Assembly (NCBI RefSeq): GCF_016786355.1
Contig: NZ_JADWYX010000045.1
Location: 1-64,000, forward strand
Direction of reading: 5' to 3'
Length of the DNA stretch: 64,000 bases
DNA from: Frankia sp. AgB1.9
GTDB taxonomy: Bacteria; Actinomycetota; Actinomycetes; Frankiales; Frankiaceae
Part shown: one piece after another, positions 2,366 to 36,174 of the stretch
Layout: each line of letters opens with the position of its first letter
Position numbering within the stretch: the stretch's first letter is position 1
The notes under the pieces: model-generated
The model's input: only the letters and a program-made list of their open reading frames with translations
The model's database searches: none
Told to the model about the DNA's origin: nothing
Program-made: the position numbers and the translations under genes

Positions 2366-2394
2366 AACCTAAAGGATTTAGTCCACCTGGTCAA
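2366..2394 (-). promoter_or_regulatory. Promoter of SDR-P450 operon with CCTAA-N5-TTAGT operator
   Basis: On the minus strand a TTGACC -35 (2394-2389) and TAGGTT -10 (2371-2366) are separated by 17 nt. The palindrome CCTAA-AGGAT-TTAGT (2368-2382) covers the -10 and half of the spacer, the position expected for a repressor site. It is one of seven copies of the same palindrome in this window. The outermost base of one half-site deviates from the consensus. Confidence 0.7.
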
Positions 2395-2558
2395 CCGGTG
2401 TCGAACGTGCTGTCGACGCGTTGGCCTGGCGTCGTGCGGCGGGCGTACGCAGCCTGCCGGCTCGGGGCCGAGGCCTAGTGAGTGGCCTCGGGCGACGGCC
2501 TATCTCAGGTCGTCGCGGCCGGCGTCTCGATCTTCGCCCTAGGTGGGTGCTCATGGTG

Positions 2559-2607
2559 TTGACAGCGATCGGGAGTCCTGTAGGCTCGCCAGCCTAAATA
2601 CTTTAGG
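2559..2607 (+). promoter_or_regulatory. Promoter of ABC transporter operon with perfect CCTAA-N5-TTAGG operator
   Basis: TTGACA (2559-2564) and TAGGCT (2581-2586) with a 16-nt spacer form a good -35/-10 pair. Starting 6 nt after the -10 is a perfect 15-bp palindrome CCTAA-ATACT-TTAGG (2593-2607), covering the expected transcription start. The binding-protein gene begins at 2722. The 453-bp gap between the divergent genes 2268 and 2722 otherwise holds nothing recognisable. Confidence 0.75.
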
Positions 2608-2721
2608 TTCGATCGCCGGTCAATCTGTTGAGCCATCGTCTCCACGCACCGGCGGCCGTGTCCCCGCCGTGTTCCCTGCAGCCTTTCGGCCGTCCGCCGC
2701 ACCTATACCCGGAGAACGCAG

Positions 2722-3909
2722 ATGAGTGAACCGCGCACCAGGCATGACCGGCTACGACGACCGCGAGCCGGATTACGATCGGCCTTTGCCGTGGGGGCCC
2801 TGGCCGGGCTCATGCTGGCGACAGCCGCGTGCGGGAGCTCCGGCTCCAGCGCGGGTACGCAACCGGCCGCCGGCTCGTCGGCATCGGCGCCGGCCGCCGT
2901 CGCGAGCGCCCAGGCGGTGGTCGACCAGCTGCTGAAGCCACCGACGTCGCTCGGCGTGACCGACCGCCTCACGAAGGCGCCGACCGGCGGCACCTTCGTC
3001 TACCTGTCCTGCGAGCTGGCGCTGTGCCAGATCCTCAACAAGAACATGAGCGAGGCGGCGAGCGCGGCGGGCCTGGGCTTCAAGTCCATACCGATCAAGT
3101 CGGCCGACCCGGCGACTCTGATCGCCGGAATGCAGCAGGCCCTCACGCTGAGCCCGCCACCGGTCGGTGTCTCGTTCGCCGGCCTTCCCGAGGCGGTCTG
3201 GGGCAGCCAGGTCGCCGCCTTCGCCGCCGCGGGCGTGCCGCTCATCCCGGTCGGGGCCGGAGAGACCAGCAAGAGCCCCGCGGTTCCGGCGGGCAGCCTC
3301 AACGGGCCCGCCGACATCACCGCCCAGGCGAAGGCCATCGCGAGCTATTTCGTCGCGAACTCGGCCGGCCGTGGCAAGGCACTGGTCCTCAATGTTCCGG
3401 ACATCGGAGCGTTCAAGCAGTTCACCGGGGACTTCTCGAGCCAGGTCGCGTCCGCCTGCCCGGGCTGCTCGGTCAAGCAGGTGGACATCACCCTCGCCCA
3501 GACGGCAAGCAACGGGGTAGTGCCGGCAGTCGTCTCGGCGCTGCAGCGTGACCCGTCGATCGACTATGTCGTGACCGTCGAAGGTGAATGGACCGCCGGG
3601 CTCGTCCCGGCCGCGAAGGCCGCCGGGCGCTCGGGTATCCACATCGTCGGCATCAATCCCACGAGCGTCGATCAGCAGGCGATTCTCGCCGGCACGGAGA
3701 CGGCGTTCGTCAACATTCCCCTGAAGATCACCTCCTGGAAGGCCGTCGACGTCGCGCTTCGCTACGCGCAGAAGATGCCGATCGCGGACGGCGACGGGGC
3801 GACGCCCTACCAGCTGCTGACCAAGGCGACGATCACGGAGCCCGAGGACTCGGTCGACGCGCCCAGCGACTACGTGGCCCAGTTCAGGAAGCTGTGGGGC
3901 CTCGGTTGA
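2722..3909 (+). CDS. Substrate-binding lipoprotein of a CUT2-type (sugar-like) ABC importer
   Basis: 395 residues. The N-terminus has arginines, a hydrophobic stretch and a lipobox ending TAAC (Cys at about residue 37), so it should be exported and lipid-anchored. The mature part looks like a periplasmic-binding-protein-like domain of the ribose/galactose class (Peripla_BP_4). GGAGAA sits 5 nt before the ATG. The ATPase and permease follow with overlapping codons, so this is the first gene of a three-gene importer operon. The ligand cannot be read from the sequence. Control by the same operator as the beta-oxidation genes suggests that the imported compound feeds this catabolic island (inference). 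Confidence 0.9.
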   Translation: MSEPRTRHDRLRRPRAGLRSAFAVGALAGLMLATAACGSSGSSAGTQPAAGSSASAPAAVASAQAVVDQLLKPPTSLGVTDRLTKAPTGGTFVYLSCELALCQILNKNMSEAASAAGLGFKSIPIKSADPATLIAGMQQALTLSPPPVGVSFAGLPEAVWGSQVAAFAAAGVPLIPVGAGETSKSPAVPAGSLNGPADITAQAKAIASYFVANSAGRGKALVLNVPDIGAFKQFTGDFSSQVASACPGCSVKQVDITLAQTASNGVVPAVVSALQRDPSIDYVVTVEGEWTAGLVPAAKAAGRSGIHIVGINPTSVDQQAILAGTETAFVNIPLKITSWKAVDVALRYAQKMPIADGDGATPYQLLTKATITEPEDSVDAPSDYVAQFRKLWGLG

Positions 3910-5471
3910 GCACCAGTACCTCCGACGCGGCGGCCCGGGAGATCCCGGGCCGCCGTGCTCGGGTGCTGGAGGTGTCGGACCTGCGGATGACCTTCGGGCC
4001 CACCGTGGCGCTCGACGACGTGGCGTTGACCGTCGAACGCGGCCAGGTGCACGCGCTGCTCGGCGAGAACGGCTCGGGGAAGTCGACGCTGATCAAGATA
4101 CTGGCCGGCTATCACCGGCCCGACCCCGGCGGCCGGGTTCTCGTCGCCGGTCGACCGCTGCCGTTCGGCAACCCGACGATCGCCGATTCCCACGGGTGCC
4201 GGTTCGTCCACCAGGACCTCGGCCTGGTGGACAGCCTGTCCGTCGCCGAGAACCTCTTCCTCACGTCTGGCTTCCCCGCGCGGTGGGGGACCATCCGCTG
4301 GCCGCGGCTGCTGCGCGCGGCCAGGGAGGACCTGGCCCGCATCGGGCTCGACCTGGACCCGCGCCAGCCCGTCGCGGGCCTGAGCCCTGCCGTCCGGACC
4401 GGCCTGGCAGTCGCTCGCGCGCTGCGCCCGGGCGCCGCCGAGGTGGAGCTGCTGGTGCTGGACGAGCCGACCGCGACGCTCCCCGACGACGAGGTGCACC
4501 ACCTGCTGGACATCGTCCGCGCGGTGGCCGCCGCGGGCACCGGGGTCCTGTACGTCACCCACCACCTCGACGAGGTGTTCGACGTGGCCGACGTCGCCAC
4601 CGTCCTGCGCGACGGGCAGGTCGTCGCGACGACCCCCGTGCCCGACCTGACCCGAGGCCGTCTGGTGAACCAGTTGCTGGGCAGTGAGCTCGACGAGGCG
4701 CACACCTCGTCCCAGGCGCTGCCAGCACCGCGGGCGGACGCCGTCCTGAAGGTCAGCGACGTCGCGGCCGGGCCGCTTCGATCACTGTCCGTCCAGGTCC
4801 GGGCCGGCGAGTTGGTGGGGATCGCCGGTCTCACCGGGTCCGGCCGGGAGAGCGCCCTCGCCGCGGTCTTCGGGATGCTGCGCACCGAGCGCGGCGACGT
4901 GAGTGTCAACGACGTGTCCCTGCGGCCGGGACATCCCCGTCGCGCCATCGACGCGGGCATCGCCTATCTGCCGGCGAACCGGAAGACGCACGGCGGGATC
5001 ATGAGCCTCACGGCGGCCGCGAACCTGACCCTTCCCGACCTGGGGCCACTGTGGCGCCCGCCGTTCCTGCGGCTGGGCGAGGAGCGGGCGGTGGCCCGAA
5101 CCTGGTTCGCGAAGCTGGATGTCCGGCCGGCGGCCGCGGTTCACCTCCCGCTGGCCGCCCTCAGCGGGGGTAACCAGCAGAAGGTGCTGCTGGCCAAATG
5201 GCTGCGGTGCCGCCCGCGCGTTCTTCTTCTCGACGAGCCGACGCAGGGCGTCGACGTCGGCGCGAAGGCGCAGATTCACCAGCAGATCGTGGCCGCCGCC
5301 GGCGACGGAGCCGCCGTCGTCGTGAGCTCGGCCGACGTCGACGAGCTGGTGGCGTTGTGCCACCGGGTGGTCGTCCTGCGGGGCGGTTACGCGGTGGCGG
5401 AGCTTTCCGGCGAGGCCCTGTCGGTTCCCGCGGTCAACAGGGCGGCGCTCGCCGCCGAAAGGACGACCTGA
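3906..5471 (+). CDS. Double-domain ABC transporter ATPase (RbsA/MglA-like)
   Basis: 521 residues with two nucleotide-binding domains in one chain, as in ribose-type importers. Domain 1 has Walker A GENGSGKST, a degenerate signature (LSPAVRTG) and Walker B LLVLDEPTATL. Domain 2 has the degenerate P-loop GLTGSGRES characteristic of this family, signature LSGGNQQK and Walker B LLLDEPTQGVD. The chosen start is TTG at 3906, whose last two bases lie in the TGA stop of the binding-protein gene. No closer ATG/GTG precedes the first domain, and the longer open frame is out-of-frame translation of the upstream gene. Confidence 0.9.
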   Translation: MSTSTSDAAAREIPGRRARVLEVSDLRMTFGPTVALDDVALTVERGQVHALLGENGSGKSTLIKILAGYHRPDPGGRVLVAGRPLPFGNPTIADSHGCRFVHQDLGLVDSLSVAENLFLTSGFPARWGTIRWPRLLRAAREDLARIGLDLDPRQPVAGLSPAVRTGLAVARALRPGAAEVELLVLDEPTATLPDDEVHHLLDIVRAVAAAGTGVLYVTHHLDEVFDVADVATVLRDGQVVATTPVPDLTRGRLVNQLLGSELDEAHTSSQALPAPRADAVLKVSDVAAGPLRSLSVQVRAGELVGIAGLTGSGRESALAAVFGMLRTERGDVSVNDVSLRPGHPRRAIDAGIAYLPANRKTHGGIMSLTAAANLTLPDLGPLWRPPFLRLGEERAVARTWFAKLDVRPAAAVHLPLAALSGGNQQKVLLAKWLRCRPRVLLLDEPTQGVDVGAKAQIHQQIVAAAGDGAAVVVSSADVDELVALCHRVVVLRGGYAVAELSGEALSVPAVNRAALAAERTT

Positions 5472-6523
5472 TGAGTTCCCGCCGACTCCCCGGCCTCGGC
5501 CTCGACAGGTTCAGCGGGCTGTACCTGTGGGCGCTGTTCATCGCGGTCTTCGCGATCTGGGTCCCACGGCTTTTCCTGACGGCGGGGACGTTGCACGCGG
5601 TGGCGGCCCAGCAGGCCATCGCCGCGATCGTCGCGATCGCCGTCCTCGTGCCGCTCGCCGGCGGCGCCTACGACCTGTCCGTCGGGGCGACCGTCAACTT
5701 CTCGACCATCATGGTCACCGTTCTGCAGAGCAACCATGGCTGGCCGATGTGGCCCGCGATCGGCGCGACCGTCGCGCTCTGTGCGTTGATCGGTGCCGTG
5801 AACGGCTTCCTTGTCGTGGTGTGCCGGGTCAACTCGTTCATCGCGACCCTGGGCAGCGCGTCCGTCATCGGTGCCTTCCAGGCCATCACGGCCGGACAGG
5901 CCCAGCCACTGCCGCCGAGCTCCACGGCTTGGGGCTCCCTGACCCAGCACGAGGTCCTGGGCTTCCAGGTCATCGTCTTCTACATGCTGGCCATCGCCGT
6001 CGTGGCCTGGTGGGGTCTCGCGCGCACCCCCGCCGGCCGCTACCTCTACGCCGTCGGGGGCAACGCGGAGGCCGCCCGGCTCTCCGGCGTCCGCACCGGC
6101 CGGTGGACCTGGCTGGCACTGATCACCTCGGCCACCCTCTGCGGCGTGGCCGGGGTCTTCTACGCCTCCCTGTCGGGACCGTCGCTCACGTTCGGCGGTG
6201 CGCTGCTGCTCCCGGCCTTCGCCGCCGTCTTCCTGGGCTCCACCCAGCTGACTCCGGGCCACGTGAACGTGTGGGGGACGCTGATCGCGCTGTACGCGCT
6301 GGCGACCGGAATCAAGGGGCTTCAGCTCGTCACCGGCGTCCAGTGGCTGCCCGACATGTTCAACGGACTCGCGTTGCTGATCGCCGTCTCCTTCGCGGTC
6401 TGGCGCCAGCAGGGCCGCGGCCGCGACCGGCCGCGCCGGGTCGACAGCGTCACCGCGGGGGAGGCCACGACGACCGAGCATCCCGCGGTGGTGGCGCCGC
6501 AAGAACTGCCGGTGAACCAGTAA
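5471..6523 (+). CDS. ABC transporter permease (RbsC-like, BPD_transp_2 family)
   Basis: 350 residues, strongly hydrophobic with roughly eight to ten membrane segments. Family-typical segments are GGAYDLSVGATVN near the N-terminal third and NAEAARLSGVRT, the ATPase-contacting loop. The ATG at 5471 overlaps the ATPase stop by one base (TGATG), showing translational coupling. It completes the importer with 2722-3909 and 3906-5471. The C-terminal tail is charged and cytoplasmic. The open frame extends far upstream, but that part is shadow of the ATPase gene. Confidence 0.92.
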   Translation: MSSRRLPGLGLDRFSGLYLWALFIAVFAIWVPRLFLTAGTLHAVAAQQAIAAIVAIAVLVPLAGGAYDLSVGATVNFSTIMVTVLQSNHGWPMWPAIGATVALCALIGAVNGFLVVVCRVNSFIATLGSASVIGAFQAITAGQAQPLPPSSTAWGSLTQHEVLGFQVIVFYMLAIAVVAWWGLARTPAGRYLYAVGGNAEAARLSGVRTGRWTWLALITSATLCGVAGVFYASLSGPSLTFGGALLLPAFAAVFLGSTQLTPGHVNVWGTLIALYALATGIKGLQLVTGVQWLPDMFNGLALLIAVSFAVWRQQGRGRDRPRRVDSVTAGEATTTEHPAVVAPQELPVNQ

Positions 6524-6557
6524 CGCTCCGTCGCCCGGAGATTGTCTTCACAACGTA

Positions 6558-6598
6558 GATGCGGGCCGGAGAGACGTCTCGTGTCTTCGGCCCGCATC
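6558..6598. terminator. Bidirectional hairpin terminator
   Basis: GATGCGGGCCG (6558-6568) pairs with CGGCCCGCATC (6588-6598), and the loop itself contains the palindrome GAGACGTCTC. It lies in the 92-bp gap between the convergent permease and CoA ligase genes, where a shared terminator is expected. There is no long T-run, as is usual in high-GC actinobacteria. Confidence 0.75.
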
Positions 6599-6615
6599 AC
6601 CTCCTGTTGCCCGGC

Positions 6616-8136
6616 TCAGCGGACTCTGGCGTACCGCCGCTCGACGTCGGCGTATTCGGCGCGGATGGCGGGTTTCGCGAGTTTCCCATTCGGGAGTCGC
6701 GGTAGCGGCGCTTCCCGGACCACGACGTAGCGCGGAACCTTGTAGGCGGCCATCTGTGACACGCAGGCCGCCACGATCGCCGCCTCGTCCACCTCGGCGC
6801 TGACCCGCACGATGGCCGCCGGAGTCTCGCCGAACTTCTCATCCTGGGCGGCGATGACGGCGACCTCCTCGACGCCGGGGATCTGAGCGATGACCAGCTC
6901 GATCTCGACCGGCGAGATGTTGATGCCGCCGGAGATGATGAGGTCCTTGAGCCGGTCTGCGAACCGGATGCGCCCGGACTCGTCCCGGGTACCCAGATCG
7001 CCGCTGTGCAGCCAGCCGTCGCGCAGCGCGGTCGCCGTCGTCGTCGGGTCGTTCCAGTAGCCGGGGGTGACGCCGGGGCCGCGCACGACGATCTCGCCCG
7101 GCTCGCCCGGCGCGCACTCGGCGCCGTCAGCGCGGATCACCCTGAGGTCGGTGAAGACCGAACCGACCCCGCACGAGTCCGGATGTGTCTGCGCCTCGTC
7201 GGGAAGGTTCGCCGTGGCCACGCCGCCGGCCTCCGTCATGCCATAGATCTGGCGGAGGCTGACGCCCTTCGCCGCCCAGGCCCGCAAAAGCGGCATCGAG
7301 ACCGCCGCGCCGCCGACGATCGCCGAGTTCAGCGCGGAGAGGTCCGCGTCGCCGAACTCCGGTGCCCGGGCCATCGACTCGTAGATCAGGGGAACACCGA
7401 AGACGGCCTGGATCCGGTGCCGTTCCAGCAGGCCCACGGCCTTCGAGGGGTCGAATCCGTTCTCCACCACGAGGGTGCCACCCAGGACGCCCGTCATCAC
7501 CAGCCCGTAGACCAGGCCTGGGGTGAAACAGAGCGGCAGTACCAGCAGGGTTCGTACGCCGGTACCAAGCCCGTCCTCGCGCAGCGACGCCTCGAAGACG
7601 ATGTCGAGCAGCGACCGGTTCGTGCAGATCACGCCCTTGGACACGCCGGTGGACCCGCTGGTGAACAGCACGGCGACCGGGTCGGCCGGATCCACGTCGA
7701 TCCGGACGTGGTCCTGGGCGGGGCCGTCCCGCAGGGCCGCCACCTCGTCCAGGCCGATCGTCCAGAACCGGCCGCCGCGCTCGCCCGCGTCCTTCAGCGC
7801 GACCTCGACGGAGTCGTCGGCGAGGACGCCGACGGCCGCCGAGTCGCCGAGGACCCGGTGGACCTCCGCTCCGACGAGCCGGGGGTTGACGGGAACCAGC
7901 ACGGCCCCGGCGCGCAGCACACCAAGCGAGGCGGCGGCCCAGGGCGCGCGGTTGTCGCCAGCCACGGCCACCCGGTCACCGGCGCGGACGCCGGCCTCCG
8001 CGAGGCGGGCGGCGACCCGGCTCGACCACGCGGCTAATAACCGATAGCTGACGGTGTCCTCGCCGAACACCAGCGCGGTTCGTTCGGGCGCGGTCCGCGC
8101 CCACCAGTCAAAGGCCGACATGATCGACGTAGCCAT
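6616..8136 (-). CDS. Acyl-CoA synthetase (AMP-dependent ligase)
   Basis: 506 residues of the ANL adenylate-forming superfamily. It should activate a carboxylic acid with ATP and join it to CoA. Motifs in order are the P-loop FTSGSTGVSKG, YGMTEAGG, the hinge region SGDLGTRD and the C-terminal catalytic lysine in PNGKLAKP. It is monocistronic, convergent with the importer and divergent from the enoyl-CoA hydratase operon. Its promoter carries the CCTAW operator at 8207, so it is probably the entry ligase of the pathway. Substrate unknown. Confidence 0.93.
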   Translation of the reverse strand: MATSIMSAFDWWARTAPERTALVFGEDTVSYRLLAAWSSRVAARLAEAGVRAGDRVAVAGDNRAPWAAASLGVLRAGAVLVPVNPRLVGAEVHRVLGDSAAVGVLADDSVEVALKDAGERGGRFWTIGLDEVAALRDGPAQDHVRIDVDPADPVAVLFTSGSTGVSKGVICTNRSLLDIVFEASLREDGLGTGVRTLLVLPLCFTPGLVYGLVMTGVLGGTLVVENGFDPSKAVGLLERHRIQAVFGVPLIYESMARAPEFGDADLSALNSAIVGGAAVSMPLLRAWAAKGVSLRQIYGMTEAGGVATANLPDEAQTHPDSCGVGSVFTDLRVIRADGAECAPGEPGEIVVRGPGVTPGYWNDPTTTATALRDGWLHSGDLGTRDESGRIRFADRLKDLIISGGINISPVEIELVIAQIPGVEEVAVIAAQDEKFGETPAAIVRVSAEVDEAAIVAACVSQMAAYKVPRYVVVREAPLPRLPNGKLAKPAIRAEYADVERRYARVR

Positions 8137-8206
8137 GAGTCTCCTCTGCCGGCACGGGAACGTTTTTCAGCACCGGAAGGGCCCGGGCGTATGATGGCGA
8201 AAGTTG

Positions 8207-8246
8207 CCTATAACATTTAGGGTAGCGATCGCCCGCCTCCCGTCAA
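8207..8246 (-). promoter_or_regulatory. Promoter of acyl-CoA synthetase with CCTAW-N5-TTAGG operator
   Basis: On the minus strand TTGACG (8246-8241) and TACCCT (8224-8219) have a 16-nt spacer. The palindrome CCTAT-AACAT-TTAGG (8207-8221, plus-strand reading) overlaps the last three -10 bases and runs over the transcription start. It has the same layout as the promoters at 2.4, 2.6 and 8.5 kb. Confidence 0.7.
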
Positions 8247-8391
8247 CACCCCGTTGGCGGTCGTGGCCGTGGTGGTCTAGGCACACTAGGCGCTGCGCCG
8301 ACCTGGGGCGAGCGGTTCGTGACCCGTAGGGTCCGCGGTGTCCCGGCCGGGCTGGCTGTCGACAGAGATCGACAATAAGGTGCGCCCGTAG

Positions 8392-8406
8392 CCTATTGGG
8401 GTTAGG
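8392..8406. promoter_or_regulatory. CCTAW-N5-TTAGG operator, middle copy of three
   Basis: CCTAT-TGGGG-TTAGG matches the palindrome at nine of the ten half-site positions of the perfect form. It lies midway in the 484-bp gap between the divergent ligase (8136) and hydratase (8621) genes, about 85 bp from the 8479 copy. No convincing -35/-10 pair surrounds it, so it may be an auxiliary site for looping or belong to a second weak promoter. Confidence 0.6.
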
Positions 8407-8451
8407 TTGCTGGTCGACGCCGGCTAGCCGCGCTCCGTTCGGAGGATTCTG

Positions 8452-8493
8452 TTGACGGCCGTGGCGAACCGCTTCTAACCTATAGCCTGTAGG
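8452..8493 (+). promoter_or_regulatory. Promoter of hydratase/aldolase operon with CCTAW-N5-GTAGG operator
   Basis: TTGACG (8452-8457) and TAACCT (8476-8481) are 18 nt apart. CCTAT-AGCCT-GTAGG (8479-8493) overlaps the -10, and the symmetry extends outward by two bases on each side (AACCTA...TAGGTT). The operon starts at 8621. Confidence 0.7.
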
Positions 8494-8620
8494 TTTTCAA
8501 TGGTCGCTCTGACCCGACCGTGGGCGGGGACCTCATCGTCATGTCACGAGGCCCGATCCGGTCCGGAACTCCCGCGCCGACCTCCTACCCAGCTCGCCCC
8601 TCGACGAGGAAGGCGCACCC

Positions 8621-9445
8621 TTGACGACCGACGCGGCCCCCAGCGCCCCCGCGACCGGAGCCGGCGCGGATGCCGCGCTCTTCGAGCGACGCGGACATGT
8701 CGCCGTCGTGACGTTGAACCGTCCCGGCGCCCTCAACGCCGTCAACTCCGCGCTCGCCACGGCCGCCGGTGCCGCCCTGGAACGGGCCGCGAACGACCCG
8801 GACGTGCGGGTCGTCGTCGTCACCGGGGCCGGCCGGGCGTTCTGCGCGGGCGCCGACCTCAAGGAGATCGCCAGCGGCAACCGGGTGGACGCACCAGAAC
8901 ACCCCGACTGGGGCTTCGCCGGCCTCGTCCAACACTGGGTGGCCAAGCCGACGGTCGCCGCCGTCAACGGCTTCGCCCTCGGGGGCGGAACCGAGATCGT
9001 CCTGGCCTGCGACCTGGCCGTGATGGACGAGACCGCCGCGCTCGGTCTCCCAGAGGTCCGCCGTGGCCTGTTCGCCGCGGCGGGCGGAGTGATCCGCCTG
9101 CAGCGCCAGAGTCCGCTCAAGATCGCGCTCGAGATCACGCTGGCCGGTGAATCCGTCCCGGCGGCGCGTGCCCTGGAACTTGGCCTGGTCAACCTGGTCG
9201 CTCCGGCGGGAACGGCGCTCGCGGCGGCGCTGGACCTGGCCGAGCGGATCGCCGCCAACGCCCCCCTGGCGGTACAGGCGAGCAAGCGCGTCGTGCATCG
9301 GACCTACTCGGCCGGCTCCGACTGGGACGACGCGGTCTGGAAGATCAACGCGGAAGCCGTGCGCGAGGTGTTCGGCAGCCGTGACGCGCGCGAGGGTGCC
9401 CGCGCGTTCGCCGAGAAACGCCAGCCGCGCTGGGAGGGACGATGA
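8621..9445 (+). CDS. Enoyl-CoA hydratase/isomerase (crotonase family)
   Basis: 274 residues. It has the crotonase oxyanion segments RAFCAGADLKE and the GGGTEI loop. Glutamates corresponding to the two catalytic residues of rat enoyl-CoA hydratase appear to be present (in GLPEVRRG and IALEITLAG), so it is probably an active hydratase of an enoyl-CoA beta-oxidation intermediate. The TTG at 8621 is used because GAGGAAGG lies 8 nt upstream and the start gives a normal N-terminus. The stop overlaps the following ATG (ATGA). It is the first gene of a four-gene operon running to 13675. Confidence 0.9.
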   Translation: MTTDAAPSAPATGAGADAALFERRGHVAVVTLNRPGALNAVNSALATAAGAALERAANDPDVRVVVVTGAGRAFCAGADLKEIASGNRVDAPEHPDWGFAGLVQHWVAKPTVAAVNGFALGGGTEIVLACDLAVMDETAALGLPEVRRGLFAAAGGVIRLQRQSPLKIALEITLAGESVPAARALELGLVNLVAPAGTALAAALDLAERIAANAPLAVQASKRVVHRTYSAGSDWDDAVWKINAEAVREVFGSRDAREGARAFAEKRQPRWEGR

Positions 9446-10632
9446 CCGGTCAGGAGTCGGCGGCCATCGCCGGGCTGGGGATCACCGAGCTCGGCAAGGT
9501 CTACGGCCGCACGTCGACGAGCCTGGCCGCCGAGGCCGTGCGGCTGGCGCTGGCGGATGCCGGCCTGGCCCTGGCCGACCTCGATGGGCTGCTCGTCAGC
9601 GGCGGCCTCCGCCAGGACGTCGGACTCAGCCTCGCGGGCGTGCTGAGCACCGGGCCGCTCGGTCTGCTCGCGCAGGTCAACGCGTTCGGCGCGAGCGCGG
9701 GGGCGATGGTGGCACAGGCCGCGCAGGCCATCGCCTCGGGCGCCGCGAGCACCGTCGCCTGCGTCTTCGCGGACACCCCCCTGCGACCGAAGCGCCCAGC
9801 GGGAGCGGCCTGGGGTGCGCCAGGAGCCGGCGCGGGCACCCCGGCCGGACTCGCCGGCTGGCAGCTCGCCTCCGGCGCCACGAATCCGAACATCCTCTAC
9901 GCGCTGGCCGCACGCCGGCACATGGAGCGCTATGGCACTCGCGGCGAGCAGCTCGCCGAGGTCGCCGTCGCCCAGCGCGCCTGGGCCGCGGGCAACCCGC
10001 TCGCCGCGATGCGCGAGCCACTGACCGTCGAGCGGCACCAGACGTCCCGCTGGATCGCCGAACCCCTGCGTCTGCTGGACTGTTGCCTGGTCTCCAACGG
10101 CGCGGTGGCCGTCGTCGTGACCTCCGCCGACCGCGCCGCGGACCTCCGCCAGCCTCCGGTGCACCTGTGGGGCTACGGGCAGGCGCACCAGCCCCGTCGC
10201 ATGCTTGCCGGCTCCGACTGGGGCCTGGTGACGCCCGCGGCCCGGTCCGGCCCCCAGGCGATGCGGATGGCCGGCGTCGGCGTCGAGGACATCGACATCT
10301 GCGAGCTCTACGACTGCTACACCTACACCGTCCTCGTCACGCTGGAGGACTACGGATTCTGCGCCAAGGGCGAGGGCGGTCCGTTCGTGACCGACGGCCG
10401 GCTCGCCCCGGGCGGGAAGCTCGCGTGCAACACCGGCGGTGGTCAGCTCTCCGGCTATTACATGTGGGGGATGACCCCGCTGTCCGAGGCGGTCATCCAG
10501 GCCCGTGGCCACGGCGGGCAGCGCCAGGCTCCGCGCAACGACGTCATCCTGGTCAGCGGCAACGGCGGCATCCTGGAGCACCACGCGACCGTCGTGCTCA
10601 GTCCGCACCCCCGGCGCCGGGGCGCGTCGTGA
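9442..10632 (+). CDS. Cysteine-less thiolase, Ltp2-like lipid-transfer/aldolase protein
   Basis: 396 residues with a thiolase fold. At the position of the nucleophilic cysteine the sequence reads FGASAGAM, and the usual C-terminal Cys/GHP motifs are replaced by NTGGGQLSGYYM. It therefore cannot act as a classical thiolase. Family members of this type (Ltp2 in steroid side-chain degradation) are retro-aldolases that need a DUF35 partner, and the next gene, overlapping by GTGA, is exactly such a protein. The aldolase role is inference from family and neighbour. The acyl-CoA substrate is unknown. Confidence 0.85.
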   Translation: MTGQESAAIAGLGITELGKVYGRTSTSLAAEAVRLALADAGLALADLDGLLVSGGLRQDVGLSLAGVLSTGPLGLLAQVNAFGASAGAMVAQAAQAIASGAASTVACVFADTPLRPKRPAGAAWGAPGAGAGTPAGLAGWQLASGATNPNILYALAARRHMERYGTRGEQLAEVAVAQRAWAAGNPLAAMREPLTVERHQTSRWIAEPLRLLDCCLVSNGAVAVVVTSADRAADLRQPPVHLWGYGQAHQPRRMLAGSDWGLVTPAARSGPQAMRMAGVGVEDIDICELYDCYTYTVLVTLEDYGFCAKGEGGPFVTDGRLAPGGKLACNTGGGQLSGYYMWGMTPLSEAVIQARGHGGQRQAPRNDVILVSGNGGILEHHATVVLSPHPRRRGAS

Positions 10633-11162
10633 GCGGGCCGGATTCGGCCGTGGGTCCCGCGGGTCCCGCGTTTCCCGCGGTCCGGCGGGACGACGCGAGC
10701 GCGTCGTTCTTCGACGCCGCCGCCTGCGGCCAGCTGCTCGTCCGCCGGTGCCCTGCCAGTGGTGACGTGCTCGCGCCCGAGGCGAGAACCTGCCCCAGCT
10801 GCGGCTCCGCCGGTCTTGACGACGTCGTGGCGTCGGGCCGAGGCACGCTGGTCAGCTGGGCGGTCGTGCACCAGGCGCCGGTGCCGTCGCTCGCCGCCGC
10901 CGTGCCCTACGTCAGCGTCGTCGTGGAGCTCGCCGAGGGGCCCTGGCTGCTGGCGCGACTGGTCGAGTCCGACGCCTCCGGGCTGCGCGCCGGGACCGAG
11001 GTCGAGGTTCGCTTCGTCCGGTCGGGCGAGCCGCTCGCGGTGCCGGCCGGCGAGGTGCTCCCGGCGTTCGCGGTCGCGTCGCGGCCGGGTGAGCCGGTCT
11101 CGACACGGGCCGGAGTGGCGTCCGAAACCCCGGGAGCCGGCGGCGGAGAGACGAGCACATGA
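10629..11162 (+). CDS. DUF35 OB-fold/zinc-ribbon protein, partner of the upstream thiolase
   Basis: 177 residues. An N-terminal rubredoxin-like ribbon (about residues 30-60) precedes an OB-fold ending in a conserved VPYVSVVVELAEGPWL stretch. The ribbon has CPSC for its second half but only CPAS for its first, so one of the four usual zinc cysteines is missing. The GTG at 10629 overlaps the thiolase stop. The longer open frame upstream is shadow. DUF35 proteins bind acyl-CoA and complete the active site of Ltp2-like enzymes, so an 9442-10632 complex is expected (inference). Confidence 0.85.
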   Translation: MSGPDSAVGPAGPAFPAVRRDDASASFFDAAACGQLLVRRCPASGDVLAPEARTCPSCGSAGLDDVVASGRGTLVSWAVVHQAPVPSLAAAVPYVSVVVELAEGPWLLARLVESDASGLRAGTEVEVRFVRSGEPLAVPAGEVLPAFAVASRPGEPVSTRAGVASETPGAGGGETST

Positions 11163-13675: not shown

Positions 13676-13680
13676 CGGTG

Positions 13681-14313
13681 TCAGCCGCCGCGTGCTTCCT
13701 GGCTCGCGAGCACGCCGGCGAGGAAGGCGCGGATCGACTCGACGAAGAGCTGCTCCGCGTCCAGCGCGTTGTGCCTGAGCGCCGCGGTCAGCGTCGGCTG
13801 GGACTCGGCGGACGCGTTCGGGAACGGTCCGTCGGCCTCGGGGGAGGCCGCCGCCTCGAGCAACGCGGAACCCAGCCCGATCCGGTCCATTCCGTCGAGG
13901 ACGAGGATGCGGCTGGACGGCGCCAGTTCGTCAGCCTGGTCCAGCACCTGCGCGGCCGTTTCGTAGAGCGGCGTGAGGACGTCGCGGGGCAGGAACTGCA
14001 GGAGGATCGGAGCGGCGTTGCGATGGCGCAGGATCGTGCGCCGGAAGTTGACGGCCAGTGTCACGAAGTACTCGGTCCAGTGAGCGGCCGGCGCGATACG
14101 TGGCAGGTCGGTTTCCAGGACGATGGTCCGGGCGATCTCGGTCAGAATGTCCGCGCGGTCGCGGAAGTGATGGTAGAGCGACGCCGTCCGCACCCCAAGC
14201 TCGTCGCCGAGCCGGGGCATCGTGAACGCCGCGTAGCCGTCCCGTTCCACCATCGCCAACGCAGTCCTGACGATCGCCTGGCGGGTCAGAGAGGGCGCGG
14301 ACTGACGGGACAT
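13681..14313 (-). CDS. TetR-family transcriptional regulator (paralogue of 25062-25715)
   Basis: 210 residues from the ATG at 14313. An in-frame start 15 codons upstream (14358) is possible. The N-terminal HTH ends in the recognition-helix segment VRTASLYHHF, followed by a ligand-binding domain with the distinctive stretch FRRTILRHRNAAPILLQ. The same stretch occurs almost unchanged in the TetR at 25062-25715. It is convergent with the CoA-transferase (5-bp gap, no terminator seen) and divergent from the Rieske gene, whose promoter carries the CCTAA palindrome. It is a leading candidate to bind that operator (inference). Confidence 0.88.
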   Translation of the reverse strand: MSRQSAPSLTRQAIVRTALAMVERDGYAAFTMPRLGDELGVRTASLYHHFRDRADILTEIARTIVLETDLPRIAPAAHWTEYFVTLAVNFRRTILRHRNAAPILLQFLPRDVLTPLYETAAQVLDQADELAPSSRILVLDGMDRIGLGSALLEAAASPEADGPFPNASAESQPTLTAALRHNALDAEQLFVESIRAFLAGVLASQEARGG

Positions 14314-14453
14314 GCCCAGATTATGGCAGTACTCCGCCACTACGGGCGCGCGCCGCATCTCGGCTGGCGTGTCCGGGTGTGACCGGCGTCATAGTCCGGC
14401 GGCATTGTTGACGGTCCCTCCCGGCGTGGTTTCGGCTGGGTCTGTCGCTTCAA

Positions 14454-14468
14454 CCTAAAAGTGTTAGG
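14454..14468. promoter_or_regulatory. Perfect CCTAA-N5-TTAGG operator upstream of the Rieske operon
   Basis: CCTAA-AAGTG-TTAGG is a perfect palindrome in the 214-bp gap between the divergent TetR gene (14313) and Rieske oxygenase gene (14528). The latter starts 60 bp downstream. I see no strong -35 at the right distance. The site could serve either gene and would allow autoregulation of the TetR gene. Confidence 0.7.
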
Positions 14469-14527
14469 CTGAGGATCGAACGCCCGGGTGGTGAACATTG
14501 CGGGCCTTCGGGACCAGGGAGGCGGGC

Positions 14528-15691
14528 ATGACCCAGCTGACGGCGCCGCGGGAGACCCGGATCGGGCGGGCGTTGGAGCATCTGCGCAACGGTTCGACCG
14601 ACGAGTTCGACGTTGTGACACCATTCGACGCCGTCGAGTACACGGACCCGCAGCTTGCCGTGCGTGAGCGGAACCTGGTGTTCGGCAGAGTTCCCTCGAT
14701 CGTCGCGCACGGCTCCGAGGTGGCGCGTGCCGGTGACTTTGTCACGCTGCAGATGCCACGCAACAAAGTCATCGTGGTCAGGCAGGCCGACGGCGTGGTG
14801 AAGGCCTTCGTGAATCTGTGTCGGCACCGCGGGGCATTGCTGGAAGAGCAGGAGAAGGGTAGTTGCCGAGTGTTCTCCTGTGGATACCACAGGTGGGCCT
14901 ACGGCACGGACGGCTCCCTGCGGGCGATCACGCGAGACGCGACGTTCGGCGAGGTGGACCGCGCGCACTACGGCCTCGTGGAGCTGCCCTGCGAGGAGCG
15001 CCACGGCTTCGTCTGGCTGGTCGACGACGCTACCCAGCAGATCGACGTCGCGGCCTGGCTCGGCTCTCCCATGGACGAGATTCTTGGCGGCTATGGCCTG
15101 CCGGATCTTGTCTGCTACCGTGCCGAGGGGTTCGACGAGCCGGTCAACTGGAAGATCATGCAGGACGCCTTCCTGGACGGTTATCACATCCAGTACGCCC
15201 ACGCGAATACCGCAGCGAGGCACATCCACACGAACGTGATGGCGGCGGAGGACTTCGGCCGGCACTGTCGGTTCATCGCGCCACGAAAGTCCATCGACCG
15301 CTGGCTCGATGAGGACCCAAATGGGACCAGCCTTGCCCCGCACGTCACCGAGACGCATTTTCTGCTGCCCAACAGCACTTTGCTGCGCCAGCCCGACCAT
15401 TTCGAGCTCCTGACGTTCCGTCCGCACCCGAAGGACCCGGGCCGCAGCCGCATGGAGATGCGACTGCTGGTGCCGCCGGTGGCGGCGAGCGGCATGTCCG
15501 AGGAGACATGGACGAAGCTCTGGGACAAGAACTGGCAGATCCTGCTGGATGTTCTTCACGCCGAGGACTTCCCGCTGCTGCGCAGCTCGCAGGCCGGACT
15601 GGAAAGCGCGGACGCGGGCGGCATGCTGCTCGGACGAAACGAGCTGGCCAATCAGGTCTTCCGTCGTGAGCTGGGCCGGCTCGTCTCCTGA
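14528..15691 (+). CDS. Rieske non-heme iron oxygenase, large subunit
   Basis: 387 residues. The Rieske [2Fe-2S] ligands are Cys98, His100, Cys118 and His121. The mononuclear iron site shows His220 and His225 in DGYHIQYAH, with a nearby aspartate bridge. There is no adjacent beta subunit or reductase, so it is probably a homo-oligomeric oxygenase fed by an unlinked reductase. It could hydroxylate or demethylate a ring or side chain. The ATG at 14528 has GGGAGG about 6 nt upstream and is preferred to the TTG at 14498. It leads a probable operon through 19316. Confidence 0.9.
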   Translation: MTQLTAPRETRIGRALEHLRNGSTDEFDVVTPFDAVEYTDPQLAVRERNLVFGRVPSIVAHGSEVARAGDFVTLQMPRNKVIVVRQADGVVKAFVNLCRHRGALLEEQEKGSCRVFSCGYHRWAYGTDGSLRAITRDATFGEVDRAHYGLVELPCEERHGFVWLVDDATQQIDVAAWLGSPMDEILGGYGLPDLVCYRAEGFDEPVNWKIMQDAFLDGYHIQYAHANTAARHIHTNVMAAEDFGRHCRFIAPRKSIDRWLDEDPNGTSLAPHVTETHFLLPNSTLLRQPDHFELLTFRPHPKDPGRSRMEMRLLVPPVAASGMSEETWTKLWDKNWQILLDVLHAEDFPLLRSSQAGLESADAGGMLLGRNELANQVFRRELGRLVS

Positions 15692-15775
15692 CCGCGGACG
15701 CGCTGGTCGCCCTGATAGCCACGCCGCGCGTCCGGCGGCCGAGCCGTGTGCTCTGACTGGAAAACGGAGGCTGGG

Positions 15776-17197
<1,422 letters not shown>

Positions 17198-17312
17198 CGG
17201 GAGTCATCCGGACGCCGGGCCGGTCGTGACCGGTCCGGCACAGTCATCCCCTCGCCGACCTCGAGGTTGCTCGCGTCATGCGGCGAGATTCACCACCTGC
17301 GCAGGAGCGTTC

Positions 17313-18461
17313 ATGGAGACGGACCTTTACGAGGCGGATCACGAGGCCTACCGGACGACGGCCAGGGAGTTCATGCGACTGGAGGTCGTGCCGCGCCTCG
17401 GTGACTGGGATCTGCGGCGCGAGGTCGACCGCGGCACCTGGACGAAGGCGGGGGCCGCCGGACTGGTCGGCCTCGCGGTTCCGGAGCGGTTCGGCGGGGC
17501 GGGCGTGAACGACTACCGCTTCCGCTTCGTCGTGTCGGAGGAGATCGCGGACGTGGGGGCGGCGGCCCTGCAGTCGGCGTTCGCGGTCAACGACGACATC
17601 GTGCTGGGCTACCTGCTCGCGCAGGCCACCGAGGAACAGAAGGCGCGGTGGCTGCCGGGCTTCGCGTCGGGCGAGACGATCAGCGCGATCGCGATGAGTG
17701 AGGCGGAGGCCGGCAGCGACCTGCGCGGGATCGCCACCCAGGCGGTCCGCAAGGGGGACCGCTGGCTGCTGAACGGGTCGAAGACGTTCATCAGCAACGG
17801 GATCACCGCCGATCTGGTGATCGTGTTCGCCAGGACCGACCCGGCGGAAGGCGCCGGCGGCTACAGCCTCTTCGTCGTCGAACGCGGCATGCCCGGTTTC
17901 GAGCGGGGCCGCAAGCTGGACAAGGTGGGACTGGCCGCGCAGGACACCGCCGAGCTGTTCTTCCACGACGTCGAGGTGCCCGCGGACAACCTGTTGGGCA
18001 GTGCCGGCGCGGGCCTGCGGTCGCTGATGGAGAACCTCCCACGCGAACGGCTAGGAATCGCGGTCGCGGCGCAGTGCTCGGCGGAGGCGTCGCTGCGCTG
18101 GACGGTGGAGTACGTACGGCAGCGGCGGGCGTTCGGCAAGGCCGTCGCCGAGTTCCAGACCGTCGGTTTCACCCTGGCCGAGCTGCGTACGCAGGTCGAG
18201 GTGACGCGGGCCTATCTCGACCGCTGCGTCCGCCAGCTCAACGCCGGGGCGTTGTCCGCGGTGGACGCGGCGAAGGCGAAATGGTGGGCCACCGACGTGC
18301 AGTGGAAGGTCATCGATGCCGGCGTCCAGCTGCACGGTGGCTATGGCTACATGACCGAGTACCCGATCGCCCGCGCGTTCATGGATGCCCGGGTGCAGCG
18401 GATCTACGGCGGCACGAACGAGATCATGAAGGAGATCATCAGCCGGGACCTGCTGCGTTGA
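17313..18461 (+). CDS. Acyl-CoA dehydrogenase
   Basis: 382 residues with the usual N-terminal helical, middle beta and C-terminal helical domains. It forms an enoyl-CoA using FAD. Visible segments are the FAD/substrate-loop region AMSEAEAGSDLRG, the C-terminal helix QRRAFGKAVAEFQ and the terminal motif YGGTNEIMKE. The residue equivalent to Glu376 of medium-chain enzymes is Gly, as in many bacterial FadE proteins that place the base elsewhere. CAGGAG lies 6 nt before the ATG at 17313. The 29-codon upstream extension is not homologous-looking. Confidence 0.93.
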   Translation: METDLYEADHEAYRTTAREFMRLEVVPRLGDWDLRREVDRGTWTKAGAAGLVGLAVPERFGGAGVNDYRFRFVVSEEIADVGAAALQSAFAVNDDIVLGYLLAQATEEQKARWLPGFASGETISAIAMSEAEAGSDLRGIATQAVRKGDRWLLNGSKTFISNGITADLVIVFARTDPAEGAGGYSLFVVERGMPGFERGRKLDKVGLAAQDTAELFFHDVEVPADNLLGSAGAGLRSLMENLPRERLGIAVAAQCSAEASLRWTVEYVRQRRAFGKAVAEFQTVGFTLAELRTQVEVTRAYLDRCVRQLNAGALSAVDAAKAKWWATDVQWKVIDAGVQLHGGYGYMTEYPIARAFMDARVQRIYGGTNEIMKEIISRDLLR

Positions 18462-18500
18462 GGGCTGTCACGGGATCGGCGGGCGGAAGGAACCAGGGCG

Positions 18501-19316
18501 ATGGCTGACACCGTGATCGAGATCGAGGAACCGCGGCCCGGCATCAGGCTGATCCGGCTCAACCGTCCTGAGGTGCTCAACGCCATCACCGCGGAGCTGA
18601 TCCAGCGGCTTCGGGACGTGCTGCGCGGGATTCAGGACGACGCCCGGGTGCGCGCGGTGGTGCTCACGGGCGCCGGCCGGGCCTTCTGCGCGGGCCTGGA
18701 CCTGAACGGCTATGGCGACCTGCCCGGCTCGCCGGAGCACGGTGAAGGCGGGCCCCAGTCCGGGCTGCGGGGACAGCGGCATGTGTCCGAGCTGGTCGAG
18801 GACTTCCGCCGGGTGCGGGCTCCGATCATCGCCGCCGTCAACGGCCCGGCGGCCGGGGCCGGGCTGTCGATCTCGCTGCTGTGTGACCTCAGGCTGGCCG
18901 CGCGGTCGGCGTCCTTCCACGCGTCCTTCATCCGGCGCGGCCTGTCCGGGTGCGACATCGGCGTGAGCTGGCTGCTGCCCCGCGCCATCGGGTTCGCCCG
19001 AGCCGCCGACCTCCTGCTGACCGGCGGATCGCTGGACGCCGCGCAGGCCGAGCGGATCGGGCTGGTCAGCGCTGTCGTCCCGGACGAGGAGCTCCTCGAC
19101 GCGGCGCTGGAGCGGGCCAGCGCGATCGTGGAGCTCAGCCCGTTCGGGGTCTGGCAGACCAAGGAGCTGCTGTGGGCGAACCAGGAGGTCGGTGGTCTGC
19201 GGGCCGCGGTGGCGCTGGAGGACCGGACCCAGGCCCTCGCCGGGATGACCGAGGACCACCGGGAGGCGGTGGGGGCGTTCCTGGAGAAACGGCCCGCGAC
19301 CTACCGCGACCGGTGA
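18501..19316 (+). CDS. Enoyl-CoA hydratase/isomerase-family protein lacking both usual catalytic glutamates
   Basis: 271 residues of crotonase fold (RAFCAGLDLNG oxyanion segment, AAGAGLSISLLCD). The two positions that hold the hydratase glutamates are occupied by FIRRGL and ADLLLTG here, so hydration by the standard mechanism is unlikely. Other crotonase reactions (isomerase, hydrolase, ring cleavage) remain possible. It lies 39 bp after the acyl-CoA dehydrogenase and probably closes the operon that begins with the Rieske gene. Convergent with the binding protein at 19385. Confidence 0.88.
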   Translation: MADTVIEIEEPRPGIRLIRLNRPEVLNAITAELIQRLRDVLRGIQDDARVRAVVLTGAGRAFCAGLDLNGYGDLPGSPEHGEGGPQSGLRGQRHVSELVEDFRRVRAPIIAAVNGPAAGAGLSISLLCDLRLAARSASFHASFIRRGLSGCDIGVSWLLPRAIGFARAADLLLTGGSLDAAQAERIGLVSAVVPDEELLDAALERASAIVELSPFGVWQTKELLWANQEVGGLRAAVALEDRTQALAGMTEDHREAVGAFLEKRPATYRDR

Positions 19317-19384
19317 GAGCCCGCTCCCGGCCGGCGAGCTGGCTCGGCCTGCGGCCGCCGTCGACGCGAGCGCCCGAGACCGCG

Positions 19385-20629
19385 CTAGGTGAGGGGGTTC
19401 CCGCAGCGGGCGACGGGCTGCAGCGGGATGAACCGGCTGCCGTCGTCGCTGACGCGCACGAAGTCCCAGCAGCTGCTGAGCTGGCCACGGTTGACGGCGA
19501 AGTCGACCGAATGCGGAAGAAGTCCGCCTCCGTCGTAGTCACGAACCGCGCGCAGACCACGGATGAAGGACTCGCGGGTGGGGCATGGACCGGCGGCCTG
19601 CAGGCCGCGCAGGAACATGTCCGCGGACAGCCAGCCGAACGCGGCGCTCTCCTGCGCCGGGGGCTGGACCTGGGGCGCGTAGGTCTCCATCGCGGAGACC
19701 AGCTGGCTGTGCGCGGCGGTGTTCAGCTCGAACGGCACGAAGTCGAGGTACATGACCGTGTGCGCGAGGGCCGGGCCGATCAACGTGAGAAGCGTCGGGT
19801 CGTAGCCCAACGGGGCCAGTACGACCTTGAGGTTGACCCCCGCCGCGCGTGCGGCCGGCAGAATCCGCGCGAGCGCGTCCGGGAAGACGGAGCCCGTGAG
19901 CGTGTCGATGTGCGCGGCCTTCATGCGCTGGGCCAGGGAATCGAAGTTCGTCATTCCAGCCGTGACGTCGAAGGTCTGGTCAATGTGAACGCCGGCCGAC
20001 TCGAGGCTTTCCGAGAGCTGGCGGTGGAAGTTCTGGGTGGCGTCCCCCGCGGCCGAGTTGATGAGCACGGCGCGCGTACCGCCCTGGCTGCGGATGAAGT
20101 CCCCCCAGACGCTGTTGGAACCAGTCCTGGTGGTGTAGTAGCTCCACGCGAACATATTGGCGTGCTCGGTCCAGGCGATCTCCCCGCCGACCCCGACGAC
20201 CGGAATATCCTCGCCGTCCAGATACTGCGCGGAGCCGGCGGCCACGGTGGTTCCCTCGATGAGGCCGAGAACTCCGTCCGCCTGAACCAGGTTCTGCGCC
20301 CCGACGAGGTTCTGCGCCGGGTCGGAGGAGTCGTCGCGCCAGCTGTACACGATTGTGCGGCCGTCGATCCCGCCGGCGGCGTTGGCGATTCCAAGGCGGG
20401 CGTCCACCCCGCCGCGGTACGCCCCGAAAGCGGACTGGCCGGCCCCGCTGTCGCTGAACAGAAGCCCGGCCTTTACCTCTGTCCTGGTTACCCCTGGCGC
20501 CGTGCACGACGACGCGGCCGAGCGCGCACCGGCGCCTCCTGGGCCGTCGCAGGCACTCAGCACGGCCAGGCTGCTGGCGGCGGCGACCAACGTGGCCGTT
20601 CGCGCCAACGATCGACTGCGTAAGAACAT
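19385..20629 (-). CDS. Orphan periplasmic substrate-binding lipoprotein (branched-chain amino acid ABC type)
   Basis: 414 residues from the ATG at 20629, which has AAGGAGA 7 nt upstream. The in-frame ATG at 20701 lacks one. Signal sequence with lipobox LSAC. The mature chain is a type I periplasmic-binding protein of the Peripla_BP_6/LivK kind (segments EVKAGLLFSDSG, LGLIEGTTVAAG). No permease or ATPase of this type is in the window, so it must serve an unlinked transporter or act as a sensor. In mycobacteria and relatives such proteins often bind hydrophobic ligands, but the ligand here is unknown. Confidence 0.87.
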   Translation of the reverse strand: MFLRSRSLARTATLVAAASSLAVLSACDGPGGAGARSAASSCTAPGVTRTEVKAGLLFSDSGAGQSAFGAYRGGVDARLGIANAAGGIDGRTIVYSWRDDSSDPAQNLVGAQNLVQADGVLGLIEGTTVAAGSAQYLDGEDIPVVGVGGEIAWTEHANMFAWSYYTTRTGSNSVWGDFIRSQGGTRAVLINSAAGDATQNFHRQLSESLESAGVHIDQTFDVTAGMTNFDSLAQRMKAAHIDTLTGSVFPDALARILPAARAAGVNLKVVLAPLGYDPTLLTLIGPALAHTVMYLDFVPFELNTAAHSQLVSAMETYAPQVQPPAQESAAFGWLSADMFLRGLQAAGPCPTRESFIRGLRAVRDYDGGGLLPHSVDFAVNRGQLSSCWDFVRVSDDGSRFIPLQPVARCGNPLT

Positions 20630-20876
20630 GAAAGGTCTCCTTTTGGCCACGTCAAAACCTGCTCCGGACGGGCTCGAAGCCGGTGCGTCGTCGTGTGTCA
20701 ATTGGCGCTGGCCGTCCTTTGGCCGTCGCCGGTGATCGTGAGGCGGCGGCGACTGTACACCTCATCCCCGGAGGTCGGGCGGGGTGGCCGTCACTCGCGG
20801 CGAGCGGTCCGACGGGCTGGTCTCAGCTCCGCTCCTGACATGTGCGCGCCCTCGACGTGACGCTGGACACGTCAAG

Positions 20877-20891
20877 CCTAATAGTTGTAGG
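20877..20891. promoter_or_regulatory. CCTAA-N5-GTAGG operator upstream of aldehyde dehydrogenase operon
   Basis: CCTAA-TAGTT-GTAGG is the seventh copy of the palindrome. It lies in the 452-bp divergent gap between the orphan binding protein (20629) and the aldehyde dehydrogenase (21082), 190 bp before the latter. TAATAG inside the site could be a -10 for rightward transcription. The rest of the gap shows nothing I recognise. Confidence 0.65.
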
Positions 20892-21081
20892 GTATCGCTC
20901 GTCGACGATAGTCCGGTGGGTGGACGGTGACCGCGAGGTAGGCGTGAAGGCCGCCCGCTACTCGCGTTCCCCGGCGGGTCCCCGGCGGGCTGGACGGTGT
21001 GCCCGTGGAGGGCTCGAAGCGGGCACACAATACGGCGCCGTCAGCACACGCCTCGCACGCTTCTTTGGAGAGGGACGAAAA

Positions 21082-22536: not shown

Positions 22537-22586
22537 CCGCGTTACCTAAAGGTCACAGCCGACCCGACGCGAGGAGGTCAGGACCG

Positions 22587-25715: not shown

Positions 25716-25840
25716 GTGCCAATCCTTCACGGCCATCGGCGCGGGCCGCACCGCGGGACTTCCCGGTACGGACGCCGCGGACCGGCAGCCTCCGATCCCC
25801 GAGATGGGTCAGTACGGCTGGAGGAACCTGAGACCGTCGA

Positions 25841-35652: not shown

Positions 35653-35735
35653 CGCGCGCCTCCCTGAGAGGGTGCTGCGGGCACGGGAACCTCCGAGCCG
35701 GTGGGCCTGGGTGCTTCGGAAAGGTCGATGTCACC

Positions 35736-36171: not shown

Positions 36172-36174
36172 CGG

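Follow-up and report, generated by a model that had tools for sequence, protein, structure and literature searches.

Candidate operators of a TetR-type repressor in a catabolic gene cluster of Frankia

Do the short palindromes scattered between the catabolic and transport genes of Frankia sp. AgB1.9 mark a single regulon, and which protein would bind them? The window analyzed here is a stretch of 64,000 nucleotides (positions 1 to 64,000 of contig NZ_JADWYX010000045.1) from a genome of 9,788,632 bases (9.79 Mb, 278 contigs), and pattern searches covered the whole assembly. The original prediction placed palindromes at 2368, 2593, 8207, 8392, 8479, 14454 and 20877, and direct reading recovered all seven candidate operator sites at those coordinates. 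We consider it likely, with a probability of roughly 0.8, that these sites, which read ARCCTA-N7-TAGGYT in Frankiaceae, are operators of a TetR-type repressor, most likely the TetR_A protein encoded at 13681-14313. The seven operators and their linked operons very probably form a real, jointly controlled gene set, because a similar site recurs with the same repressor type and much of the pathway in many actinobacteria.

Seven sites and their rarity in the genome

As predicted for catabolic and transport operons, an operator is found near the start of each presumed gene row. Operator 1 (2366-2384, core 2368-2382, minus strand) is traversed by TTGACC-17-TAGGTT, a promoter-like arrangement for the SDR and P450 genes, while operator 2 (2591-2609, core 2593-2607, plus strand) lies just 3′ of TTGACA-16-TAGGCT, at the expected start of the importer genes. 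Operator 3 (8205-8223, core 8207-8221, minus strand) is located 5′ of the CoA ligase gene and is overlapped by TTGACG-16-TACCCT. Operator 5 (8477-8495, core 8479-8493, plus strand) precedes the ECH1, thiolase and CoA-transferase genes and is overlapped by TTGACG-18-TAACCT; operator 4 (8390-8408, core 8392-8406, no strand assigned) sits in the middle of the divergent region between ligase and ECH1. Operator 6 (14452-14470, core 14454-14468, no strand assigned) separates TetR_A from the Rieske genes, and operator 7 (20875-20893, core 20877-20891, plus strand) separates the SBP6 and ALDH2 genes, where a possible TGGACA-18-TAGGGT promoter would take the right half-site as its -10 element.

The consensus first drawn from these sites, CCTAWN5KTAGG, is matched exactly by six of the seven, but with one mismatch at 2368 (CCTAAAGGATTTAGT). 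The two sites described as perfect, 2593 and 14454, match this degenerate consensus in full on both strands, although their exactly complementary outer arms extend for only 6 and 5 bp, respectively. All seven sites are intergenic when the best gene starts are chosen by eye (SDR ATG 2268, ligase ATG 8136, Rieske ATG 14528, SBP6 ATG 20629 and ALDH2 GTG 21082), whereas mechanically called open reading frames (ORFs) overrun some of them.

A search of the genome for the core CCTA-N7-TAGG gives 11 places, six of which fall in this 18-kb part of the window, compared to 153 for a control with the pattern written backwards. Each of the other five core places carries C or G at both positions adjoining CCTA and TAGG. 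More specific forms are confined to the window: all four genomic occurrences of CCTAW-N5-WTAGG (control 3) and all six exact occurrences of WVCCTA-N7-TAGGBW (control 132) are found there. Permitting one mismatch in the latter pattern yields 18 genomic places, none on the contig of the window, several of which recur in the related genome G001. A core search of whole genomes with one mismatch (821 places in G000) was too loose for use.

A 19-bp matrix was built from 17 distinct Frankiaceae sites, and because 16 of these were picked by the core itself, the core positions are fixed in the matrix; its free positions show A/T flanks. The seven sites score between 20.4 (operator 4) and 29.6, the next best site in the window scores 10.7, and when the window was dinucleotide-shuffled 100 times the top scores averaged 6.0 with a maximum of 17.6, a comparison that is not independent because window sites contributed to the matrix. 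A de novo count of palindromes places AACCT-N9-AGGTT, AAACCT-N9-AGGTTT and AATCT-N9-AGATT among the top 15 of their lists, with none in the reversed control. Palindromes with GC-rich arms, GACGA and CGACGA among them, come out above these, and thus the de novo count alone would not single out the motif. The clustering of the sites is not due to chance.

Conservation of the site in Frankiaceae and beyond

Genome G001, probably Pseudofrankia inefficax EuI1c, has all seven sites in place, five of them identical at 19 of 19 positions within surroundings (215 bp) that are themselves 80-95% identical. Operator 1 is among the unchanged sites in G001 and keeps 17 of 19 bases in Frankia nepalensis (G003), while operator 4 keeps 16 of 19 in the G001 core and has no counterpart in the G003 stretch by comparison or matrix scan. 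F. nepalensis retains six sites. Two of these, operators 6 and 7, are identical at 19 of 19 positions with surroundings of 80% and 64% identity, respectively; the other four keep 15-17 of 19 bases in surroundings of 58-73% identity. Operator 6 is likewise unchanged in G001. In G008 and in Parafrankia EUN1f (G023) the cluster is rearranged, yet sites still precede the ALDH1/thiol1 and ALDH2/ChsH2 genes in both, as well as the P450/SDR genes in EUN1f. Three of eight genomes of the genus hold a match to TetR_A at E 1e-40.

Wider loci were gathered with an alignment of eight TetR_A/B sequences as the query, and the best 80 of 106 confirmed loci were selected for the TetR gene alone. Leaving out three Frankiaceae loci gave a test set of 77 loci (1.50 Mb) for the matrix, which had been trained on Frankiaceae only. 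At a score of at least 16, there are 150 matches in 65 of the 77 loci, compared to a mean of 0.33 and a maximum of 1 in 12 dinucleotide shuffles; across all 80 loci, 156 matches are found versus 2 in reversed sequence. All but one of the 150 matches fall outside genes labelled by similarity to window proteins (30-bp margin at each end), where only labelled genes were called and the labels span 41% of the sequence.

Counting both halves of these matches, the most frequent base at each position between -9 and -1 gives A A C C T A A A G. Conservation is highest for C at -6 (100%), T at -5 (97%) and A at -8 (90%), values raised by matrix selection, and position -7 is C in 60% and T in 23%. A labelled gene begins within 500 bp downstream of 118 matches, and 32 have none. 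Among loci that hold a given gene, a site precedes the Rieske gene in 27 of 47, ALDH2 in 18 of 46, SDR in 17 of 38, the ligase in 10 of 46, ChsH2 in 9 of 27, the CoA-transferase in 8 of 29, TetR_B in 8 of 71 and P450 in 7 of 37; because labels were assigned by best similarity, those for SDR and ALDH take in paralogues at 30-40% identity. Sites are rare before ALDH1 (1 of 31 loci) and ECH1 (2 of 19), as expected for genes internal to a row.

The palindrome and the regulator also tend to occur in the same genomes. Among 393 genomes of the class, with TetR presence scored at E 1e-35 and statistics that ignore descent, AAYCTA-N7-TAGRTT is carried by 6 of the 10 TetR-bearing genomes versus 29 of the 383 that lack the TetR gene (Fisher test, 5.3e-5). 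Thirteen of the 29 carry the CTAG type, AAYCTAG-N5-CTAGRTT, and leaving these out lowers the Fisher value to 2.8e-6. Together, the concentration of sites, their conservation at orthologous promoters and, in other genera, their association with a single TetR clade support the proposal that a shared operator defines a catabolic regulon.

A separate observation concerns AAYCTAG-N5-CTAGGTT palindromes in nine genomes of one genus (L157-L165; family f18, 7.6-9.9 Mb) that have no TetR match at the cut-off. This palindrome looks like the site of another regulator.

Candidate regulators and comparison with tetO

Three TetR genes are present in the window: TetR_A (13681-14313, minus strand), TetR_B (25062-25751, minus strand) and TetR_C (31589-32212). 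The TetR_A ORF extends to 14358, and its ATG start at 14313 was picked by alignment. Both TetR_A and its paralogue TetR_B (45-46%) have an N-terminal TetR helix-turn-helix that exceeds the Pfam cut-off of 24 bits (PF00440; 40.7 and 41.2 bits, respectively). TetR_A, with its adjoining site, is most likely the regulator on the sequence evidence. Operator 6 lies between this gene and the divergent Rieske genes, an arrangement expected of an autoregulated catabolic TetR regulon and kept in G001 and G003. TetR_A groups with its F. nepalensis counterpart and two Pseudonocardia proteins (support 100/99), and in each of these three a site precedes the TetR match by 113-145 bp; the two Pseudonocardia proteins, its nearest relatives outside Frankiaceae (58%), have theirs at 126 and 145 bp.

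That TetR_B, alone or together with TetR_A, regulates the seven sites seems to us doubtful, although it is the alternative with the most in its favor. Its recognition helix (RAPSLYHH) is close to that of TetR_A (RTASLYHH), 73 of the 80 wider loci carry the TetR_B label and only six that of TetR_A, and in G046 (L010) the sequence AACCTACAGTGATAAGGTT adjoins a TetR_B-like match, one of two TetR matches there. However, TetR_B lies 4.2 kb from the nearest site, with none within 4 kb in the window, and it ends a gene row whose upstream region bears a different palindrome, TTAACGATGTTAA. Moreover, stretches of 2.9-3.6 kb around Frankiaceae TetR_B-like genes (L017-L020) hold no site scoring at least 13, and F. 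nepalensis retains its sites with a single TetR match at the cut-offs used, the TetR_A orthologue. TetR_C is less likely still as the regulator, since its helix differs (SAAALYHH) and no site scoring at least 13 occurs around it and its G001 orthologue (L022/L023).

The palindrome TTAACGATGTTAA is located at 30252-30264, between a P450 gene (28883-30250, minus strand) and an SDR gene (30221-31330, plus strand), and is identical in G001. L014 and L125 carry related AACTTAA-N5-TTAAGTT forms, again close to TetR genes other than these. It is possible that TTAACGATGTTAA serves as an operator of TetR_B or TetR_C.

TetR_A and TetR_B resemble class D tetracycline repressors over most of their length (E 2.7e-11 and 1.2e-15, respectively). 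The NCBIfam tetracycline repressor equivalog has a cut-off of 265 bits, whereas they reach 71.2 and 82.9 bits, respectively, and neither is therefore a tetracycline repressor. The tetO operator is given as TCCCTATCAGTGATAGAGA within a primer, reading CCTATCAGTGATAGA (PMC4575469); written as CCTA-N7-TAG, this form of tetO shares the 15-bp register of the CCTA-N7-TAGG sites. In the tetO complex, Arg28 and Gln38 are the sole side chains that hydrogen-bond to bases, at G+2 and A+3, and Tyr42 contacts T+4 (PMC7102968).

Both base-reading residues are replaced in the window proteins, by Pro/Thr in TetR_A and Pro/Ala in TetR_B. In the 76 of 80 wider loci that could be aligned (four were dropped), position 28 is P in 69, E in 4, Q in 2 and G in 1, and position 38 is A in 71 and T in 5. 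Arg28 and Gln38 are thus found in none, while Tyr42 and His44 are present in all 76. The inner bases differ as well: position -2 is C in tetO but A in 68% of the Frankiaceae matrix, in which positions 4 to 7 are fixed by site choice, and A, T and C in 44%, 31% and 24% of the wider set, which has A (83%) or T (15%) at position -4. This correlation agrees with a tetO-like geometry whose inner contacts would have been lost. Simple carry-over from tetO is opposed by the TAAGG-type half-sites, in which +4 is A rather than T.

Mode of control and the gene set

Promoters had been proposed to overlap the sites at 2368, 8207 and 8479 and to place a start at 2593. A relaxed TTGACA/TAnnnT search fits these positions, but a strict sigma-70 scan of four stretches that hold window sites found no promoter. 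Spacing was counted in 356 oriented sites, obtained by reading every site both ways (so that half are wrongly oriented by construction) and dropping identical surroundings. In 26 of them TTGAC begins 20 bases ahead of the operator center, whereas the mean per offset is 0.68. These 26 are spread over 23 loci and nine genera (with Mycobacterium and Mycolicibacterium counted as one) and precede SDR, Rieske, ChsH2, ALDH2 and P450 genes. In 25 cases a 17-base spacer is followed by the right half-site as TAAGGT (24) or TAAGAT (1), and the remaining case has TAGGTT at 18. At 2368 the spacer is likewise 17 bases long, between TTGAC at -19 and TAGGTT. In another type TTGAC lies at -31 to -34 and the -10 element is expected at the left half; 13 such cases are listed, including 8207 and 8479, and most of the 356 show neither spacing.

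This geometry suggests repression by covering of the promoter, and the fixed spacing of TTGAC relative to the operator supports the earlier expectation of a repressor. A few TetR-family proteins act as activators; we judge it very improbable that the protein activates these promoters. An activator might account for the sites that lack a good promoter: 14454 has no -35/-10 pair even in the relaxed search, and 8392 has only a weak pair on the minus strand. However, sites that lie over the spacer and -10 element, at a TTGAC distance fixed in several genera, are suited to blocking. We give the least credence to the idea that the sites are chance palindromes, which the shuffles, reversed control and genome counts exclude, or promoter or transcript elements with no bound regulator, for although one half-site often resembles a -10 hexamer and part of the conservation could derive from this, the second half-site and flank are conserved as well.

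Several observations weigh against TetR_A-mediated repression at these sites. In addition to the outcome of the strict promoter scan, the -19/-20 TTGAC spacing occurs within the window at 2368 only. In only 21 of the 80 loci do the 450 bp preceding the TetR match contain a site scoring at least 13, and placement of a site at the promoter of the regulator gene is therefore not general. Twelve of the 77 test loci have no match of score 16 (some are short contigs), and the wider sites are looser, with CTA-N7-TAG whole in 92 of 150 and CCTA-N7-TAGG whole in just 17, which makes the original consensus narrow for the other genera. Once the CTAG type is removed, 16 of 383 genomes without the TetR gene still carry the palindrome. 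Furthermore, the loci share descent, and both the Fisher test and the spacing count are uncorrected for kinship. Finally, the recognition helices of TetR_A and TetR_B are so similar that sequence alone cannot choose between them.

If TetR_A is the repressor, a TetR-type dimer would bind each site and deny RNA polymerase access, since operator and promoter overlap and the -10 hexamer is often part of one half-site. The repressor might then be released by a compound of the pathway, perhaps an acyl-CoA made by the ligase. Release would jointly switch on import, CoA activation, oxygenation by the P450/SDR and Rieske systems, beta-oxidation and the two thiolase modules, and would also turn on TetR_A itself.

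It is about an even chance that these genes represent an undescribed regulon for the breakdown of a natural compound, perhaps a cyclic terpenoid-like acid, that extends across many families of actinobacteria and has outlying relatives among the Alphaproteobacteria, and whose repressor is near the tetracycline repressor, keeping the tetO register with a change in the inner bases that are read. The operator motif was not found in the open-access literature searched, which offers partial coverage, and the description of the regulon as unrecognized holds within that scope but not beyond it. KstR and KstR2 are likewise TetR-type repressors that control multi-operon catabolic regulons through short palindromes. 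Their 14-bp operators are TnnAACnnGTTnnA (KstR; PMC1995591) and AnCAAGnnCTTGnT (KstR2; PMC3068626), and neither motif fits the seven sites when these are read directly against it, as had been anticipated. KstR3 of Mycolicibacterium neoaurum is described as a negative regulator of the TetR type whose target operon includes an aldolase gene and a DUF35 gene (PMC10398937); our comparison with it is by description. The word “motif” occurs 0 times in that text. The Lcin1 motif of Nocardioides simplex, TCCCGGTSACCGGGA, is a different palindrome (PMC7593942).

These results supply a specific proposed operator, together with a candidate repressor identified by name, for a catabolic gene set that recurs in Frankia, Pseudonocardia, Nocardia, Rhodococcus, Gordonia, Mycolicibacterium, Streptomyces and others. 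Because the operator marks genes that belong together, the substrate can be sought through the compound that releases the repressor. It is also a naturally occurring case in which departures of a TetR-type helix and operator from the tetO arrangement can be studied.

The gene rows were assigned from Pfam matches. P450 and SDR genes occupy 74-2268 on the minus strand (SDR start at 2268; the P450 ORF spans 74-2008, with a true start that is probably later). They are followed by a sugar-type importer (binding protein, ATPase and permease; 2722-6523, plus strand), whose binding-protein match and NCBIfam permease match fall below the curated cut-offs, and by the acyl-CoA ligase gene (6616-8136, minus strand). 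The plus-strand row at 8621-13675 encodes the enoyl-CoA hydratase ECH1, the thiolase-type protein thiol1 and a CoA-transferase III protein with two such stretches in a single chain of 838 amino acids (11159-13675). Long relatives of this last protein (794-863 amino acids aligned) are found in several of the wider loci, among them L062, L063, L069, L081, L085 and L112.

A further plus-strand row at 14528-19316 encodes the Rieske oxygenase, the aldehyde dehydrogenase ALDH1, an acyl-CoA dehydrogenase and the enoyl-CoA hydratase ECH2. The best relatives of the Rieske protein with solved structures match at E 2.7e-27, and a plasmid search gave no match at E 1e-60. The gene for the periplasmic binding protein SBP6 (19385-20629, minus strand) diverges across operator 7 from the row at 21082-24935 (plus strand; start options compared), which encodes the aldehyde dehydrogenase ALDH2, a ChsH2-like protein and the thiolase-type protein thiol2. 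The thiolase and ChsH2-like genes raised the suspicion of steroid catabolism; no test points to steroids and none excludes them. Abscisic acid was also considered as a substrate, purely as a conjecture.

Farther along the window, 32760-44763 holds a cluster of the 3-phenylpropionate/cinnamate type, in which no operator-like site scores above 10.7 in the matrix scan. Its 3-carboxyethylcatechol 2,3-dioxygenase scores 488 bits (cut-off 291), and a 4-hydroxy-2-oxovalerate aldolase and a 2-keto-4-pentenoate hydratase also exceed their cut-offs. The same cluster encodes the alpha (best match HcaE, below cut-off) and beta subunits of a dioxygenase, a hydrolase, an acetaldehyde dehydrogenase and an IclR regulator. 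An ORF at 59820-60212 matches the Pfam entry “NucS shadow ORF” with 216.5 bits and is probably the antisense of a nucS gene.

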